Notes under the pieces: model-generated
Databases searched by the model: none
What the model saw: only the letters and a program-made list of their open reading frames with translations
What the model was told of the DNA's origin: nothing
Source: Arcobacter nitrofigilis DSM 7299
Lineage (GTDB): Bacteria > Campylobacterota > Campylobacteria > Campylobacterales > Arcobacteraceae
Length of the DNA: 64,000 nt
Assembly: GCF_000092245.1 (NCBI RefSeq)
Contig: NC_014166.1
Span: 1,612,001-1,676,000 of the forward strand
Direction: 5' to 3'
Shown here: positions 42,246 through 48,496 of the stretch, one piece after another
How positions within the stretch are numbered: position 1 is the first letter of the stretch
Layout of the letters: the number at the start of each line of letters is the position of its first letter
Position numbers and translations under genes: made by a program

Positions 42246-42273
42246 AAAAGCTAAATAAATTTTTATTTAGCTT
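42246..42273 (-). terminator. Terminator after the M14 carboxypeptidase gene
   Basis: AAAGCTAAATAAA (42246-42258) and TTTATTTAGCTTT (42261-42273) form a perfect 13-base stem with a TT loop, followed by TTTTAATTT on the minus strand. It ends the four-gene ATP-grasp/peptidase operon and includes the stop codon. Confidence 0.75.
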
Positions 42274-44851
42274 TATATTCTAAAATAACTGGTTCTGAGT
42301 AATTTGGAACATCATCGTAAGTAAATATTGCATAATACTTATCAATATCAGTTGCACCAAAATCATCTAAAGTATACTCATCAATACCAGCATAAAGTTT
42401 TTGCCCATCTTGTGCAGATAAAGGTTTTCTAAAAGGATTTTTAATAACTTTTGCCCCTACAAAACCTGAATCTTTTGGATTATTCCAAGAGACTTTTATC
42501 TTTGCATTTTCCATTACTAATTGTGCATTTGTTACTTTTTCAACAGGGAATCTTCTTTTTGGTATATATTCAAGAATGAGTTTTGGGCATAAAGTACTAT
42601 TATTACTCGCTTCCCATGAAACAGTCTTATCTTTTAATGCTTTAAATGCAGATGTTGGTTTTAATACAAAAGAGATATCTGATTTAGTTTTTAATTTTTC
42701 ATTTAAAGTCATTTCAGAAAAAGAATCAAACATGAAGTATTGGGTTTGATTGTTTTTAAGTTCAGTTGCACTAACGTCATAACCAATATTTTGAATAACT
42801 TCCCTAGATGTAATATCTTTGTAGCTTTTATTTATATTATCATCTACAAACTCTAAATGAAATCTAATATCATCCTTGATATAAATTTTTGTAGAATTTA
42901 ATTCAAAATAAGCTTTAGTAATCATTGTATCATTGTAAGGAGGAAGAGAAGAGAGATTAAATTGAAAAGTAGAATATATTTTATTTCCATTTTTATCAAA
43001 ACCAGGAGTAATAACATCTTCTAATACTTCATTTTTACTTACTGTATAAATAGTTTTTGGAAACAAAGCTATACTTGTAGGTTCAATTGTATAAGTTAAT
43101 TCTAGTCTTGGTCTATATGTTAATCCAAAACCAAACTTTCCATACCCAATGTCCCATTGCATCATCTGTTTACTTCTCCCAACCCTTAACTCTTTGGGAC
43201 CTTCAACTCTTAAAATAATAGTATCATTTTTTATAGATTTTTTTAAATCATCACACTCTAAACCTGATAAATGCCAATTTCTCCAAATTCCTTGTGTCAA
43301 TTGATGAGATTCAGTAGGGCGACCAATATATCTGATTATCTCCATATTATTTACATCTTCAAAATTTGTAATATCACCCATTGTGTCTTGATTAACAAGT
43401 CCTACATTCCACTCACCATACTTTTCAATTGTAGTTGAAACTCTGTTTATAGGATATAGGTTAAATGAAGCTAATTTTATAAGTGCATTTTGAGGAAGTG
43501 ATTTTACATTTATAGAAATAATAGCATATGAAATACCTTTGTTTTCATCTATTCCTACGAATAAAGAATTAACACCAAAATGTTTAGGATTATTGTTTAA
43601 ATTTTCTGCAACATAACCAGTACCTTTTGCATTAGCATAATAAGTTCTACTATATTCATCATACTCAACTAAAGTTCTAATCTTAATTTGAGGATAAAAA
43701 GGTGATTTTTGATTTGTTTTTTTATTTACAGCTCTAATATTGTAATAATAATCTCTATTTGAAGCTAGATTTATATCACTAAACTCTAAAGCTTGAGTTT
43801 TTGCAATTAAATTAGAAGAGTTACAAAACTGTTTATCTTTTTGACTTCTAAATATTTCAAAATAGATATTCTTATTTAATTGATAATCCCATTTTAATGT
43901 TACATGATTTGAACCAATCTCACTAGCTTCAAAACTAGATACTCTTTTCATTAAAGAGATTTTGTCATAATTATCTACTTCTTTTAAGGCATATATTAGT
44001 GCTGGAATATGTTCTCTTATATTTTCATTCATATCTTCCATATAATCACTAATATTTCTAGTTCCTACTTCCACAACTGATGACAGTATTCCTTGTGAAT
44101 AATAAAATTCTCTTCCACTTCCTGATATCAATTTTGCAGGTGGTTTACCTTGATGGATACCATATTCCCGCCCTGATATCTTTCTAATCTCTTCAGCCAT
44201 ATTTGCACATAAAGTATTCATATCAATTGTATCAATTGTATCTTCATGTCTAAAATCATGTGCTGGAAAGAAAACATTACCTTGACTGTGGTAATCTAAG
44301 GCAATAGTAATATTAGGATGAGATAAAACAAATTCTCTTAAACTTTGAGTTTCAGGCTCAGAAAAAGGCTCAGGACCTCCATATACATTTGATGAAGTAG
44401 CAGTTGATTTTACAAATCCAATCGGGAAGTTTCTATTTAAGTCAACTCCATATGTTCCATCTAAATTCTGTCTTCTATTCTTTCTCCAAAAAGAAAAATG
44501 CTTTCTTGAATATTCATAACCATCAGGATTGGCACAAGGTACCATATAAATAGTACTTTCATTTAAATATGTTTGTAAAGTTGGATCAGTTTCTAAGTTT
44601 TTTAACACATAAGTTGCAAATTCTATAGCCAACTCATGTCCTATCCACTCTCTAGCATGGATTGTTCCTGTATAAAATAGGGCAGGTTTATTATTTGCTG
44701 TTTCAATATTTTTTGATATTGTTATTAAGTTAATATCTCTTTTTTCCCAAGTTTGACCAATAGATTCTATTTTGAAATATTCTGGATATTTCGCTTCCAA
44801 TTCTTTAAAAATTGTTGTTGAAGCATCGTATGATCTGTATAATCTTTTCAA
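42263..44851 (-). CDS. M14 zinc carboxypeptidase with C-terminal beta modules
   Basis: The 862-residue protein has an M14 peptidase domain (about 1-290): zinc ligands His65 and Glu68 in HAREWIGHE, substrate loop CANPDGYEYSRK and DLNRNFP, third ligand His in ALDYHSQGN, and catalytic Glu in SSVVEVGTR. A fibronectin-like segment (about 310-390), two DNRLRE-like beta modules with SINVKSLPQNALIKLASFNLYP and QFNLSSLPPYNDTMITKAYFELN (about 395-560 and 570-730), and a final fibronectin-like domain follow. No signal peptide is seen. The start is TTG behind AGGAG, three bases after the ATP-grasp stop. Confidence 0.85.
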   Translation of the reverse strand: MKRLYRSYDASTTIFKELEAKYPEYFKIESIGQTWEKRDINLITISKNIETANNKPALFYTGTIHAREWIGHELAIEFATYVLKNLETDPTLQTYLNESTIYMVPCANPDGYEYSRKHFSFWRKNRRQNLDGTYGVDLNRNFPIGFVKSTATSSNVYGGPEPFSEPETQSLREFVLSHPNITIALDYHSQGNVFFPAHDFRHEDTIDTIDMNTLCANMAEEIRKISGREYGIHQGKPPAKLISGSGREFYYSQGILSSVVEVGTRNISDYMEDMNENIREHIPALIYALKEVDNYDKISLMKRVSSFEASEIGSNHVTLKWDYQLNKNIYFEIFRSQKDKQFCNSSNLIAKTQALEFSDINLASNRDYYYNIRAVNKKTNQKSPFYPQIKIRTLVEYDEYSRTYYANAKGTGYVAENLNNNPKHFGVNSLFVGIDENKGISYAIISINVKSLPQNALIKLASFNLYPINRVSTTIEKYGEWNVGLVNQDTMGDITNFEDVNNMEIIRYIGRPTESHQLTQGIWRNWHLSGLECDDLKKSIKNDTIILRVEGPKELRVGRSKQMMQWDIGYGKFGFGLTYRPRLELTYTIEPTSIALFPKTIYTVSKNEVLEDVITPGFDKNGNKIYSTFQFNLSSLPPYNDTMITKAYFELNSTKIYIKDDIRFHLEFVDDNINKSYKDITSREVIQNIGYDVSATELKNNQTQYFMFDSFSEMTLNEKLKTKSDISFVLKPTSAFKALKDKTVSWEASNNSTLCPKLILEYIPKRRFPVEKVTNAQLVMENAKIKVSWNNPKDSGFVGAKVIKNPFRKPLSAQDGQKLYAGIDEYTLDDFGATDIDKYYAIFTYDDVPNYSEPVILEYKAK

Positions 44852-44854
44852 AAA

Positions 44855-46354
44855 CTATTCTCCTATTTTTAATCTAGACTTCAATTGACTAAATTTATTT
44901 TTCCCAATACCCTCTAGCTCTTTTAACTCATTTATACTTTTAAAAGTTGTCATTTTTTTTCTATAATCAAGAATATTTTTTGCCAATTTTGGACCAATTC
45001 CTTTTATTTTTTTCAGAACTTCTACTGTAGCAGTATTAATATCAATTCTCATATCGTCAATATTTTCATCCCAAGATTTCAACATTTGAGAATCTATTGA
45101 TTCTAACTCAAGTAAATCAGAACTATCAGTGATAATATTATCTTCTAAATACTCTTTTATTTCAATAGCCAAATCCTCTTCCATACCGTACAAAGACATT
45201 AAATCAGTTAGTGTAGCTCCATTTAAATTTATTTTTTTCTTTTCATATTCATCTTCAGTTCTCTTAGTATTTTTAGATTGATTAGCATTTTTATCAGGGG
45301 CAATTGAATCTGGAACATCACCATTATTACTTATTTCAGTCAAAGACATATCAAAATTATCTTTTGTATCATTTAGATAATATTCCCCATCGAAACTAGG
45401 TTTATATTTACTAAATCCAATATTTCTCATAGTTCTTAATAATGAAGAATCAATTTTACCTAGCTCTTCCCATGAAAATAATGGTACATGAGGCTTTTTA
45501 AATCTTCCTTTTGAAAAGTCCCACATCAAATATTGACAAATCCAATCTCTTATATATGGAAAGGCAGCAAAAGCTGTTGCACACTCTAAAATATATGCTT
45601 TTCCTGTTTTTGCACTAATTGCAATATCACAAGCCCAATATTCTGCTTTTGCAGCTTTACTAGCTTTTACAGCAAGCTCTAGAGCATTCATTGGAATATT
45701 TTCATAAGACATTGAACCTCCTTGCGAAGTATTTGTTATCCATTGGTTTTTACCTGAATATCTCCAAAATGCACAAATAGGTTTATGACCAATAAGCATT
45801 ACTCTAATATCTCCTGAATCTTTTAAATCAATAGCATTTTGTGTATAAATTGGATTATATTTTTTTTCATCAAGAAGTTTCTTTGCTTCTTTAAAACTAT
45901 CTGCTTTATGAACAAAATAACCACCATAATTTGATGGACCATAACTTCTTTTTATGATTTGAGGATAAGTTGCTTTATTTTTAAGATATTCATAACCTTT
46001 ATCTTTATCATAAAAAATTTTTGTTTTAGGAATAGAGATTTTAAACTTTTTACAAAATAAAGTTACATTCTCTTTTGATCTATTTGAAAATTGTGTTTCA
46101 ATTGAAGGTACAAATCTTACATCTGGAAGTTCTTTTGAAATTTCAACAAAAGTTTCATAAGCAGTTGCAGGAATATTACCGATTAATATTTTGATTTTTT
46201 TTCTTTTGATTTCCTTTATAAATCTTGCTTTATCATTTTTCCAATGGTAAGTAACAGTTTCAATTTTATCAGGCCAACCTTTGAAATTAGATTTATCAAA
46301 AAATCTCATTACATAATCAAGATACAACAGTCCTATTTTCGGTAGTTTTTTCAT
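44855..46354 (-). CDS. ATP-grasp ligase-like protein fused to ComEA-type HhH repeats
   Basis: The 499-residue protein has a RimK-like ATP-grasp core: QIIKRSYGPSNYGGYFVH for the lysine and glycine-rich loop (about 133-150), GDIRVMLIGHKPICAFWRYSGKN and NTSQGGSMSYENIP (about 178-220). The metal-binding segment reads YILECATAFAAF, so the Asn of the usual ExN is missing. A charged linker (about 325-370) leads to two helix-hairpin-helix repeats of ComEA type, the second reading INTATVEVLKKIKGIGPKLAKNILDYR. It overlaps the previous gene by ATGA. Function is unknown; peptide bond or amide ligation is inferred. Confidence 0.75.
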   Translation of the reverse strand: MKKLPKIGLLYLDYVMRFFDKSNFKGWPDKIETVTYHWKNDKARFIKEIKRKKIKILIGNIPATAYETFVEISKELPDVRFVPSIETQFSNRSKENVTLFCKKFKISIPKTKIFYDKDKGYEYLKNKATYPQIIKRSYGPSNYGGYFVHKADSFKEAKKLLDEKKYNPIYTQNAIDLKDSGDIRVMLIGHKPICAFWRYSGKNQWITNTSQGGSMSYENIPMNALELAVKASKAAKAEYWACDIAISAKTGKAYILECATAFAAFPYIRDWICQYLMWDFSKGRFKKPHVPLFSWEELGKIDSSLLRTMRNIGFSKYKPSFDGEYYLNDTKDNFDMSLTEISNNGDVPDSIAPDKNANQSKNTKRTEDEYEKKKINLNGATLTDLMSLYGMEEDLAIEIKEYLEDNIITDSSDLLELESIDSQMLKSWDENIDDMRIDINTATVEVLKKIKGIGPKLAKNILDYRKKMTTFKSINELKELEGIGKNKFSQLKSRLKIGE

Positions 46355-47265
46355 TTTTTGTCCCCTTTGTTAGTTTTTCTATCAATTAAATCCACAATCA
46401 AGTCTATTTTTTTATCATTGAAGTCTAAACCCATTTTTTCTTGCTCTGGTGTTGCAAAAGCTGGTATTCCATTAACTTCTAAAACAATAAATTCTTCTTT
46501 TTTTCTATCATATATTATATCAACACCTGCTATATCAAGCCCAGTAATTTTAGCTGCTTTTAGTGCTAGATTGATTACATCTTCATTTGGTTCTCTTAAA
46601 AATACACTTCCACCACTAGTAACATTTGTACGCCACTCAGCACCATTTGCTTTTCTTCCATAACATCCTACAAATTGTCCATCAACAATGTCAATTCTAT
46701 AATCAGTATTATCATAATCAATAAATTTTTCAACATAAAAATATCTTAAATCCATTTGATTTAAAAAGGGAATAAGCATATTTAATGCTTCTTCATTTTC
46801 TATTTTTGTAAGACCAACTCCACCCCAACCATCAGTTGGTTTATATACCATTTTAGACCACTTTTTCATAATAGTATTTAGATGAAAAGTATCATCCCTA
46901 TGACAAAGTTTATAATCTGCCGTTTTAACGCCATGTGTTCTTAGCAAAAACGATGTATGAAACTTATCTTCTGTTAGTTCAAATGCCTCATAACTATTAA
47001 TCATAGGAATGACTCTATTTAGAGCTTTGTATAAATACATTTGATATTGAGTTTGTTCCCCTGCATTATATGAAAAAAATAAATCAAGTTTTTCTAACTT
47101 TATTTTATCATACAAAATATGCGAGTTTTTAGCAATTGCATTTCGTAAATTTAAATTAGGAATAGTAATAATATCCCGCTCATTAAGTTTATCTATTATC
47201 TTTTTTTGTATAGCTTCCCCACCACTATTTTGATAAAGCCACATACCAATTTCTCTTTTTACCAT
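46351..47265 (-). CDS. ATP-grasp amide/peptide ligase, RimK-like
   Basis: The 304-residue protein has the complete ATP-grasp pattern: MVYKPTDGWGGVGLTKIENEE (ATP-binding Lys and Gly-rich loop, about residue 137), FYVEKFIDYDNTDYRIDIVDGQFVGCYGRKA, NVTSGGSVFLREPNED, GVDIIYDRKKEEFIVLEVNGIPAF with the metal-binding Glu and Asn. RimK-type enzymes link a carboxylate, activated as acyl phosphate, to an amine, often adding amino acids to a peptide or cofactor. AAGGAG stands before the ATG. It is the intact partner of the fused protein downstream. Confidence 0.85.
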   Translation of the reverse strand: MVKREIGMWLYQNSGGEAIQKKIIDKLNERDIITIPNLNLRNAIAKNSHILYDKIKLEKLDLFFSYNAGEQTQYQMYLYKALNRVIPMINSYEAFELTEDKFHTSFLLRTHGVKTADYKLCHRDDTFHLNTIMKKWSKMVYKPTDGWGGVGLTKIENEEALNMLIPFLNQMDLRYFYVEKFIDYDNTDYRIDIVDGQFVGCYGRKANGAEWRTNVTSGGSVFLREPNEDVINLALKAAKITGLDIAGVDIIYDRKKEEFIVLEVNGIPAFATPEQEKMGLDFNDKKIDLIVDLIDRKTNKGDKK

Positions 47266-47275
47266 TTGATACTCC

Positions 47276-48370
47276 TTAAATATTATTTTGGAAATAAGCT
47301 AAAACATTTGTCATTAAATCAATTCTTTCTTGGAAACTACTTTTTAAAGCTCTCTCTTTAATAGTATGATCTCCATCACCAAATGGCCCAAAACCATCTA
47401 AAGTAGTTACTCCACAACTAGCAACTATATTTGCATCACTAACACCACCTCTTTTTTCACTTAAGATTGTACTATTTGTGATTTTTTCTATTTTTTTAAT
47501 CAATTCTAATTGATTAGCATTTTCTTGCATAACATCTCTTTGTATTGAGCCTGTAAGAATAGATATTGTTCCTGATACATAAGAATTGTTTGTAATTTTT
47601 TCCAATGAGTCTAAAACTCTTTGTTTTTCATCATTTGAGGTATATCTTATTTCTAAAAGAAGTTCACATTTTGGAGATATTGTATTTGCCCCAATTCCAC
47701 CATTTATTTTTCCAACATTTACAGTTGTTTGTAGCTCTAAGTTAGTCAATTTTACTAGCTCTTGTAGTTTATAACTAGCTTCTAAATTAGCGTCAATACC
47801 TTTATCATAATGATTTCCAGCATGACTAGCTTTTCCTTCAATGGTTATTGTGAAAGTTCCTACACCTTTCCTTTGAGTTACAACTTCCATCTTTTCGCCA
47901 GCTGCTTCAAAAACAAAACACAAATCATAATTTTTAGCAATAGAAGAGGTTATAAGTTTTGAATCATCACTTCCTGATTCTTCATCTGAAACTAATAAAA
48001 AGTCTATATTAAAAATCTCTTTATTTGTTTTGAATATATTTCTTAAAGCTTGAAGAGCGACAATATTGCCACCTTTCATATCACAAACTCCAGGTCCATA
48101 AACCCAAAGCTCATCTTCACTAAATTCTTCAAATGTATTTGGAGGAAAGACCGTATCGTTATGTCCTAAAAGAAGTATTTTAGGTCCAGCTTTTTTTGAA
48201 GACTTAAATAATTGATGATTTCCTAAAAGCTCTCTTGTATAAGTCTTTTCTTCAAAGCCTAATTCTTTTAACCAAGAGGACATTATGGCACCAATTTTAT
48301 CGACGCCTGTTTTGTTTTTGGTATAAGAGTTTATATTTATAATTTGTTTTAAGTCAAGTATGTAATTCAT
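47276..48370 (-). CDS. M20-family metallopeptidase, CPG2-like
   Basis: The 364-residue protein is a zinc exopeptidase of the M20 group, closest in pattern to glutamate carboxypeptidase: LLGHNDTVFPP with metal His and Asp near residue 75, YGPGVCDMKGGN, LVSDEESGSDDS with catalytic Glu, and GGVSDANIVASCG plus DGFGPFGDGDHTIKE. The dimerisation lid has HAGNHYDKGIDANLEAS. It starts the operon: the ATG at 48370 has AGGA seven bases before it, better than an in-frame TTG at 48385. The ATP-grasp gene begins ten bases after its stop. Confidence 0.88.
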   Translation of the reverse strand: MNYILDLKQIININSYTKNKTGVDKIGAIMSSWLKELGFEEKTYTRELLGNHQLFKSSKKAGPKILLLGHNDTVFPPNTFEEFSEDELWVYGPGVCDMKGGNIVALQALRNIFKTNKEIFNIDFLLVSDEESGSDDSKLITSSIAKNYDLCFVFEAAGEKMEVVTQRKGVGTFTITIEGKASHAGNHYDKGIDANLEASYKLQELVKLTNLELQTTVNVGKINGGIGANTISPKCELLLEIRYTSNDEKQRVLDSLEKITNNSYVSGTISILTGSIQRDVMQENANQLELIKKIEKITNSTILSEKRGGVSDANIVASCGVTTLDGFGPFGDGDHTIKERALKSSFQERIDLMTNVLAYFQNNI

Positions 48371-48457
48371 TATTATCCTATTCAAATGAATAATTCTATG
48401 TCGTTAGGATTACATTCTAGTGACAATAATGAAATTATTTATTTCTTTATAAATTTT

Positions 48458-48496
48458 TTATAAAAAAAAAGGGAAATAGGTGGCAAATGCCACCTA
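48458..48496 (-). terminator. Strong intrinsic terminator after argG
   Basis: TAGGTGGCA (48477-48485) and TGCCACCTA (48488-48496) form a GC-containing nine-base stem with an AA loop. On the minus strand it is followed by TTTCCC and a run of nine T. It separates argG from the M20/ATP-grasp operon. Confidence 0.88.

Follow-up and report, generated by a model that had tools for sequence, protein, structure and literature searches.

A candidate module for adding and removing acidic amino acids, encoded by two ATP-grasp ligase and two zinc carboxypeptidase genes in Arcobacter nitrofigilis

Tubulin of eukaryotes is a well-known target of reversible glutamylation; among bacterial proteins, the established example is ribosomal protein S6. 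Here we describe a set of four genes from a 64,000-nucleotide stretch (the window) of the Arcobacter nitrofigilis DSM 7299 chromosome, encoding two RimK-like ATP-grasp ligases and two zinc carboxypeptidases of the M20 and M14 families. With moderate confidence, we interpret this set as a self-contained, horizontally mobile, cytosolic module that would attach acidic amino acids (L-glutamate being the most likely) to the carboxylate of an acceptor and remove them again. If this interpretation is true, bacteria hold further glutamylation cycles, and the module would represent a separate transferable set of two writers and two zinc-carboxypeptidase erasers. The open literature that we searched, which did not include the amidoligase survey of Iyer and colleagues (2009), yielded no description of the four-gene set.

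Organization, co-inheritance and transfer of the four genes

The unit lies on the minus strand and starts with the gene for a carboxypeptidase-G2-like M20 metallopeptidase (47276..48370; Pfam M20/M20_dimer). It is followed by the genes for two ATP-grasp ligases, referred to here as AG1 and AG2. AG1, the predicted first writer, is RimK/MptN-like (46351..47265; Pfam RimK, 3.5e-20). AG2 is a second, RimK/LysX-like ligase (44855..46354; Pfam RimK and HHH_3) with a variable C-terminal tail resembling helix-hairpin-helix (HHH) repeats (about 44861-45232). The last gene (42263..44851; Pfam Peptidase_M14, 2.9e-60) encodes an M14A zinc carboxypeptidase that continues into fn3-like and DNRLRE-like beta domains. 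Packing is tight, with 10 bp between M20 and AG1, a 4-bp overlap of AG1 and AG2, and 3 bp between AG2 and M14. The best placement of the M20 start is the ATG at 48370; a TTG at 48385 is likewise in frame.

These coordinates, families and spacings are all as given in an earlier note on this DNA, which had also proposed a terminator on either side of the unit. The one after argG is a GC-rich intrinsic terminator found by the terminator scan (48477..48496, minus strand; 8 bp stem with 5 GC pairs), and it sets the four-gene unit apart from argG. The one after the M14 gene is a weak, AT-rich hairpin with a T-run, read in the sequence (42249..42272, minus strand) and absent from the scan list, its stem being too poor in GC pairs for the scan's GC rule. 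None of the four proteins reaches an equivalog (functional) cut-off of NCBIfam, and none has a signal peptide; the M14 frame is open for only 863 codons, which leaves no room for one. All four proteins look cytosolic.

A search of genomes at one per species found 80 loci encoding an AG2 relative, and 194 stretches were matched in all. The four-gene set recurs in Arcobacteraceae, Sulfurospirillum, Sulfurimonas, Hydrogenimonas, Nitratifractor, Desulfuromusa, Thiomicrorhabdus and Photobacterium, and where the length of the contig allows it to be seen, the order is in most cases M20, AG1, AG2, M14. The M20 gene is inverted yet still adjacent in one deep branch (L069, L071, L075 and L079), and likewise in Photobacterium sp. 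DA100. The neighbours vary from argG and a gamma-carbonic anhydrase gene in Arcobacteraceae to the rpsP-rplS operon in many Sulfurimonadaceae and others elsewhere. Neighbourhood clustering gave lineage-specific neighbours only, and no fifth constant partner gene. The earlier note had seen no precursor peptide gene inside the operon, and this holds across the loci, in which only the same four genes recur.

Among 104 Arcobacteraceae genomes, 43 contain all four genes, 51 contain none and ten are partial, several of the latter being fragmented or small; the set is thus close to all-or-none in this family. Pairwise Fisher p values for co-presence of the genes, calculated from raw counts, range from 1e-21 to 1e-29 and are merely indicative because the genomes were counted as independent, with phylogeny uncorrected. 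The association of the four genes is not a matter of chance. In 13 of the 20 fetched genomes that lack the full unit, argG and the carbonic anhydrase gene adjoin each other at a distance of 15-153 bp. Since this site, which the set occupies in the window, is empty in many genomes without the set, the unit is gained or lost as a block. One further genome has an intact M14 gene alone between argG and the gamma-carbonic anhydrase gene (L192, G082:C7:92000-102300). Across Campylobacterota, AG2 is present in 52 of 397 genomes, and the sample of Gammaproteobacteria yielded a full-length M14 relative in one genome only, which was already known.

Several loci depart from the standard arrangement. In L072 and L073, AG2 has no adjoining M14 gene, and the L072 genome encodes an M14 relative elsewhere (G108:C17). 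At G001:C1:1455405-1457766, about 1.25 kb of inserted DNA interrupts the M20 gene. The unit at L065:5210-13922 looks decayed, with M20 and M14 split, AG1 reduced to a short fragment and unrelated genes in between; this locus comes from a metagenome-assembled genome (MAG), where an assembly error is possible.

The M14 tree places Thiomicrorhabdus (Gammaproteobacteria) and a Desulfuromonadales MAG within the Sulfurimonas/Helicobacteraceae group, and two Sulfurospirillum sequences within the Arcobacter group. Misbinning is possible for some of the taxa involved, which are MAG labels, but none of Thiomicrorhabdus heinhorstiae, Sulfurospirillum arcachonense and Photobacterium is listed as one. The AG1 tree splits into two groups, and either type of AG1 occurs among Sulfurimonas-type units. 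Both AG1 clades stand side by side in one unit (L047:8576-10480), which looks like a possible intermediate of ligase replacement within the unit. Judged from these phylogenies, the four-gene set is horizontally mobile and can be taken to have entered distant bacteria. The genes are thus not scattered, the outcome that the earlier note had named as fatal to its own proposal, but are kept together through transfers between phyla.

Active sites and predicted specificities

The earlier note had called the M14 enzyme modular. It does have several domains, which we now define as an M14A peptidase domain (residues about 1-300) and a beta region of about 560 residues with fn3-like and DNRLRE-like parts. 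DNRLRE is present in 39 of 40 M14 homologues, and an NCBIfam DNRLRE-type domain is found also in the protein of the window. The zinc ligands H65, E68 and H188 and the catalytic E261 are invariant in all 61 homologues compared. The S1' specificity site, residue 255 of bovine carboxypeptidase A (CPA), is occupied by R247 (codon at 44111..44113, minus strand; aligned to an Ile in CPA4), and this column holds Arg in 60 of the 61 homologues and Lys in the other. Non-cassette M14A enzymes fetched from Gammaproteobacteria have D, T or I there as far as they can be aligned, the remoter M14 families of that set giving no reliable alignment at this column. Residue 255 determines specificity in this subfamily, and Arg255 leads to acidic specificity in carboxypeptidase O (CPO) (PMC9925722). 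The structural model of the whole protein (predicted local distance difference test, pLDDT, 84.8, with values under 50 in loops near residues 122-159 and 236-244) is nearest to CPT, CPA, CPB and CPO, and the matches to its M14A fold include CPO (5mrv). The sequence and fold features of a CPO-like M14A enzyme (the zinc ligands, the catalytic Glu and Arg or Lys at 255) are all present, and the enzyme is predicted to favour C-terminal acidic residues.

The best solved relative of the M20 protein is carboxypeptidase G2 (CPG2; 1cg2, E 4e-24). All 67 homologues compared keep the metal ligands and the residues corresponding to H229, N275, R288 and R324 of CPG2. R324 is a substrate residue of CPG2, as is K208, the equivalent of which varies among the homologues. 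From this resemblance, the M20 enzyme is predicted to release C-terminal or N-acylated glutamate.

Among NCBIfam models, AG1 scores best with MptN (139.8 bits) and rimK_fam (RimK family alpha-L-glutamate ligase, TIGR00768, 131.7 bits), both under the cut-off, which is 143.4 bits for TIGR00768. Its catalytic set (K142, E179, R190, D249, E263 and N265) is invariant in 85 of 85 homologues. R190 and N265 align with R189 and N262 of RimK, which contact poly-glutamate (PMC10092738). AG2 is more diverged, with 64.4 bits on TIGR00768, and its model (pLDDT 74.9) is nearest to ArgX, LysX and RimK. It keeps the Lys, Arg (R184), Asp and Glu, and the EVN motif is replaced by ECAT in 93 of 93 sequences, so that the catalytic Asn is lost. 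On these comparisons, AG1 and AG2 can be assigned to the glutamate-ligase branch of ATP-grasp enzymes.

The HHH repeats of AG2, which the earlier note had singled out as a distinguishing feature, do not hold up as such. Pfam RimK is matched by 47 of 47 AG2 homologues and HHH_3 by only 27 of them (the AG2 of the window has two HHH_3 stretches), so DNA binding is no constant property of this ligase. At one locus (L012:14232-15598), the M14 gene is followed by another ligase of the AG1 type and by a protein that consists of the HHH tail only and has 44% identity to that of AG2, which suggests that the tail can work as a free-standing partner. A phage origin of the unit was considered and dropped, because the viral contigs and phage records contained no relative of the AG2 ligase domain and gave ComEA-type HHH matches only.

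The proposed cycle and its alternatives

The four genes combine a conserved, co-inherited and transferred gene content with active sites that are intact, apart from the one altered motif of AG2, and with a basic specificity residue in the M14 enzyme. From this combination we infer glutamate as the amino acid, as well as the direction of each enzyme and the following division of labour. AG1 and AG2 would activate a carboxylate of the acceptor as an acyl phosphate and couple it to the amino group of glutamate. The M14 enzyme would trim C-terminal Glu or Asp off the resulting chain by means of its Arg247 pocket, and the M20 enzyme would remove the last, N-acyl-linked glutamate or recycle released small glutamyl compounds. 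The peptidases, with their predicted preference for C-terminal acidic residues, and the ligases, with their place in the glutamate-adding branch, are independent lines that appear to point in the same direction, and a cycle of glutamate addition and removal is their simplest reading. The earlier suggestion of a write-and-erase cycle, a predicted activity, is strengthened by the basic M14 residue, the CPG2-like M20 enzyme and the glutamate-ligase relatives.

As these four genes alone are transferred together to distant bacteria, the acceptor must be a protein or metabolite of wide occurrence, unless it is one of the four gene products themselves. A large acceptor is favoured by the length of the M14 beta region and by the AG2 tail, which looks suited to binding macromolecules; a small metabolite is possible. 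The most specific form of the proposal, a mobile bacterial cycle of protein glutamylation in which ATP-grasp writers and M14/M20 erasers act on a widespread unrecognised protein target in parallel to the tubulin code, is offered only tentatively. Gain and loss among close relatives, together with a prediction for a single residue (R247 of the M14 enzyme), make the proposed cycle directly testable.

Several observations weigh against this proposal. Neither ligase reaches the cut-off of any NCBIfam model for a named glutamate ligase, and a different amino acid is therefore conceivable. Without the catalytic Asn of EVN, AG2 may have an altered chemistry or act as a partner. The equivalent of CPG2 Lys208 is variable among the M20 homologues. 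Finally, Arcobacteraceae genomes with M14 alone or with M14 and AG2 occur, and the M14 enzyme may therefore act outside the cycle.

The strongest competing explanation, of a kind that the earlier note had also raised and in our view less likely, is a small-molecule pathway. The ligases would then make an N-acyl-glutamate metabolite or a short acidic peptide (an osmolyte, a cofactor tail or a compound like N-acetylaspartylglutamate), which the peptidases would recycle. Peptidases are also part of known peptide-osmolyte clusters, and the named hosts of the cassette are mostly marine or saline taxa. MptN, the best named relative of AG1, adds Glu to a cofactor, and small N-acyl-glutamates are substrates of M20 enzymes of the CPG2 type (PMC5919439). 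On the other hand, the beta region of the M14 enzyme exceeds what an enzyme for small molecules would need, and the unit has no constant association with an acyltransferase, a transporter or a regulator. AG1 reaches 21.8 bits on the NAGGN osmolyte model TIGR03103 (a fused GNAT/ATP-grasp synthetase) against a cut-off of 569.

A storage polymer is much less probable. The ligases would then polymerise glutamate or another amino acid into a cyanophycin-like reserve to be mobilised by the M14 and M20 enzymes, and the beta domains of M14 could hold the polymer; RimK can make free poly-alpha-glutamate (PMC11957791). However, AG1 scores 43 bits on the cyanophycin synthetase model against a cut-off of 850, and the unit is without a Mur-type amidoligase.

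We give very little credence to the set being an alternative system for modification of ribosomal protein S6 (RpsF) that replaces RimABK, in spite of the resemblance of RimK-like ligases with peptidases to RimK with RimB and the frequent position of the unit downstream of the rplS operon in Sulfurimonadaceae. The genome of the window has a separate, ordinary pair of a rimB-like gene and a canonical rimK (L234:307-2670), so S6 is probably not the target. Genomes that lack the cassette contain strong RimK matches too, and S6 ends in the same kind of non-acidic C-terminus (...EEAAKKAN type) whether or not the cassette is present. The rimB-rimK pair is followed by a gene for an AstE/M14-like deacylase.

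A graspetide-like ribosomal peptide pathway, with ATP-grasp cross-links in an unseen precursor and maturation by the peptidases, is suggested by the pairs of ATP-grasp enzymes that make microviridins, yet it is just as improbable, given spacers of only 3-10 bp in the window, the absence of a precursor gene and of any recurrent small open reading frame of at least 60 aa beside the unit (shorter frames were not screened), the absence of a transporter, and ligase relatives that are amino-acid ligases and not macrocyclases. A role in anti-phage defence was likewise rejected, as none of the four proteins matches a PADLOC model.

Comparison with known systems

The two peptidases have known counterparts. 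With CPG2, its best solved relative, the M20 enzyme shares a conserved active site, but it lacks a signal peptide, lies in an operon with ligases and has not kept the Lys208 equivalent. The M14 enzyme resembles CPO in having Arg at the equivalent of CPA 255 and no pro-domain, and differs in being bacterial, without a signal peptide, extended by a long C-terminal fn3/DNRLRE-like region and only about 25% identical.

Among whole systems, the LysW carrier system (ArgX/LysX with the M20 hydrolase LysK) likewise pairs a RimK-like ligase with an M20 hydrolase, whereas the present unit has an M14 enzyme and a second ligase in addition. No LysW-like carrier is encoded in the unit or recurs beside it, although no genome-wide search for LysW was made. 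The two ligases score 57.9 and 41.6 bits on the model of the GAK system (TIGR04356; cut-off 300), and the YheC/D family of ATP-grasp enzymes was not found in the genome. In the RimABK and RimBK systems (PMC11957791), as is predicted here, a cytosolic RimK-family writer is co-encoded with a remover of the added residues. The erasers of the present unit are, however, M14 and M20 zinc carboxypeptidases and not a retropepsin-like RimB, and its two ligases are diverged; it contains no RimB-like gene, and the S6 tail does not co-vary with it.

The eukaryotic tubulin cycle of TTLL ligases and cytosolic M14 carboxypeptidases (CCPs) also joins a writer of the ATP-grasp superfamily to an eraser of the M14 superfamily, with an acidic specificity that is predicted here, and both would operate in the cytosol. 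The ligases described here are RimK-like and not TTLL, and the M14 enzyme is of the CPA/CPO and not the CCP type; this likeness to the tubulin cycle is likely to be convergent.

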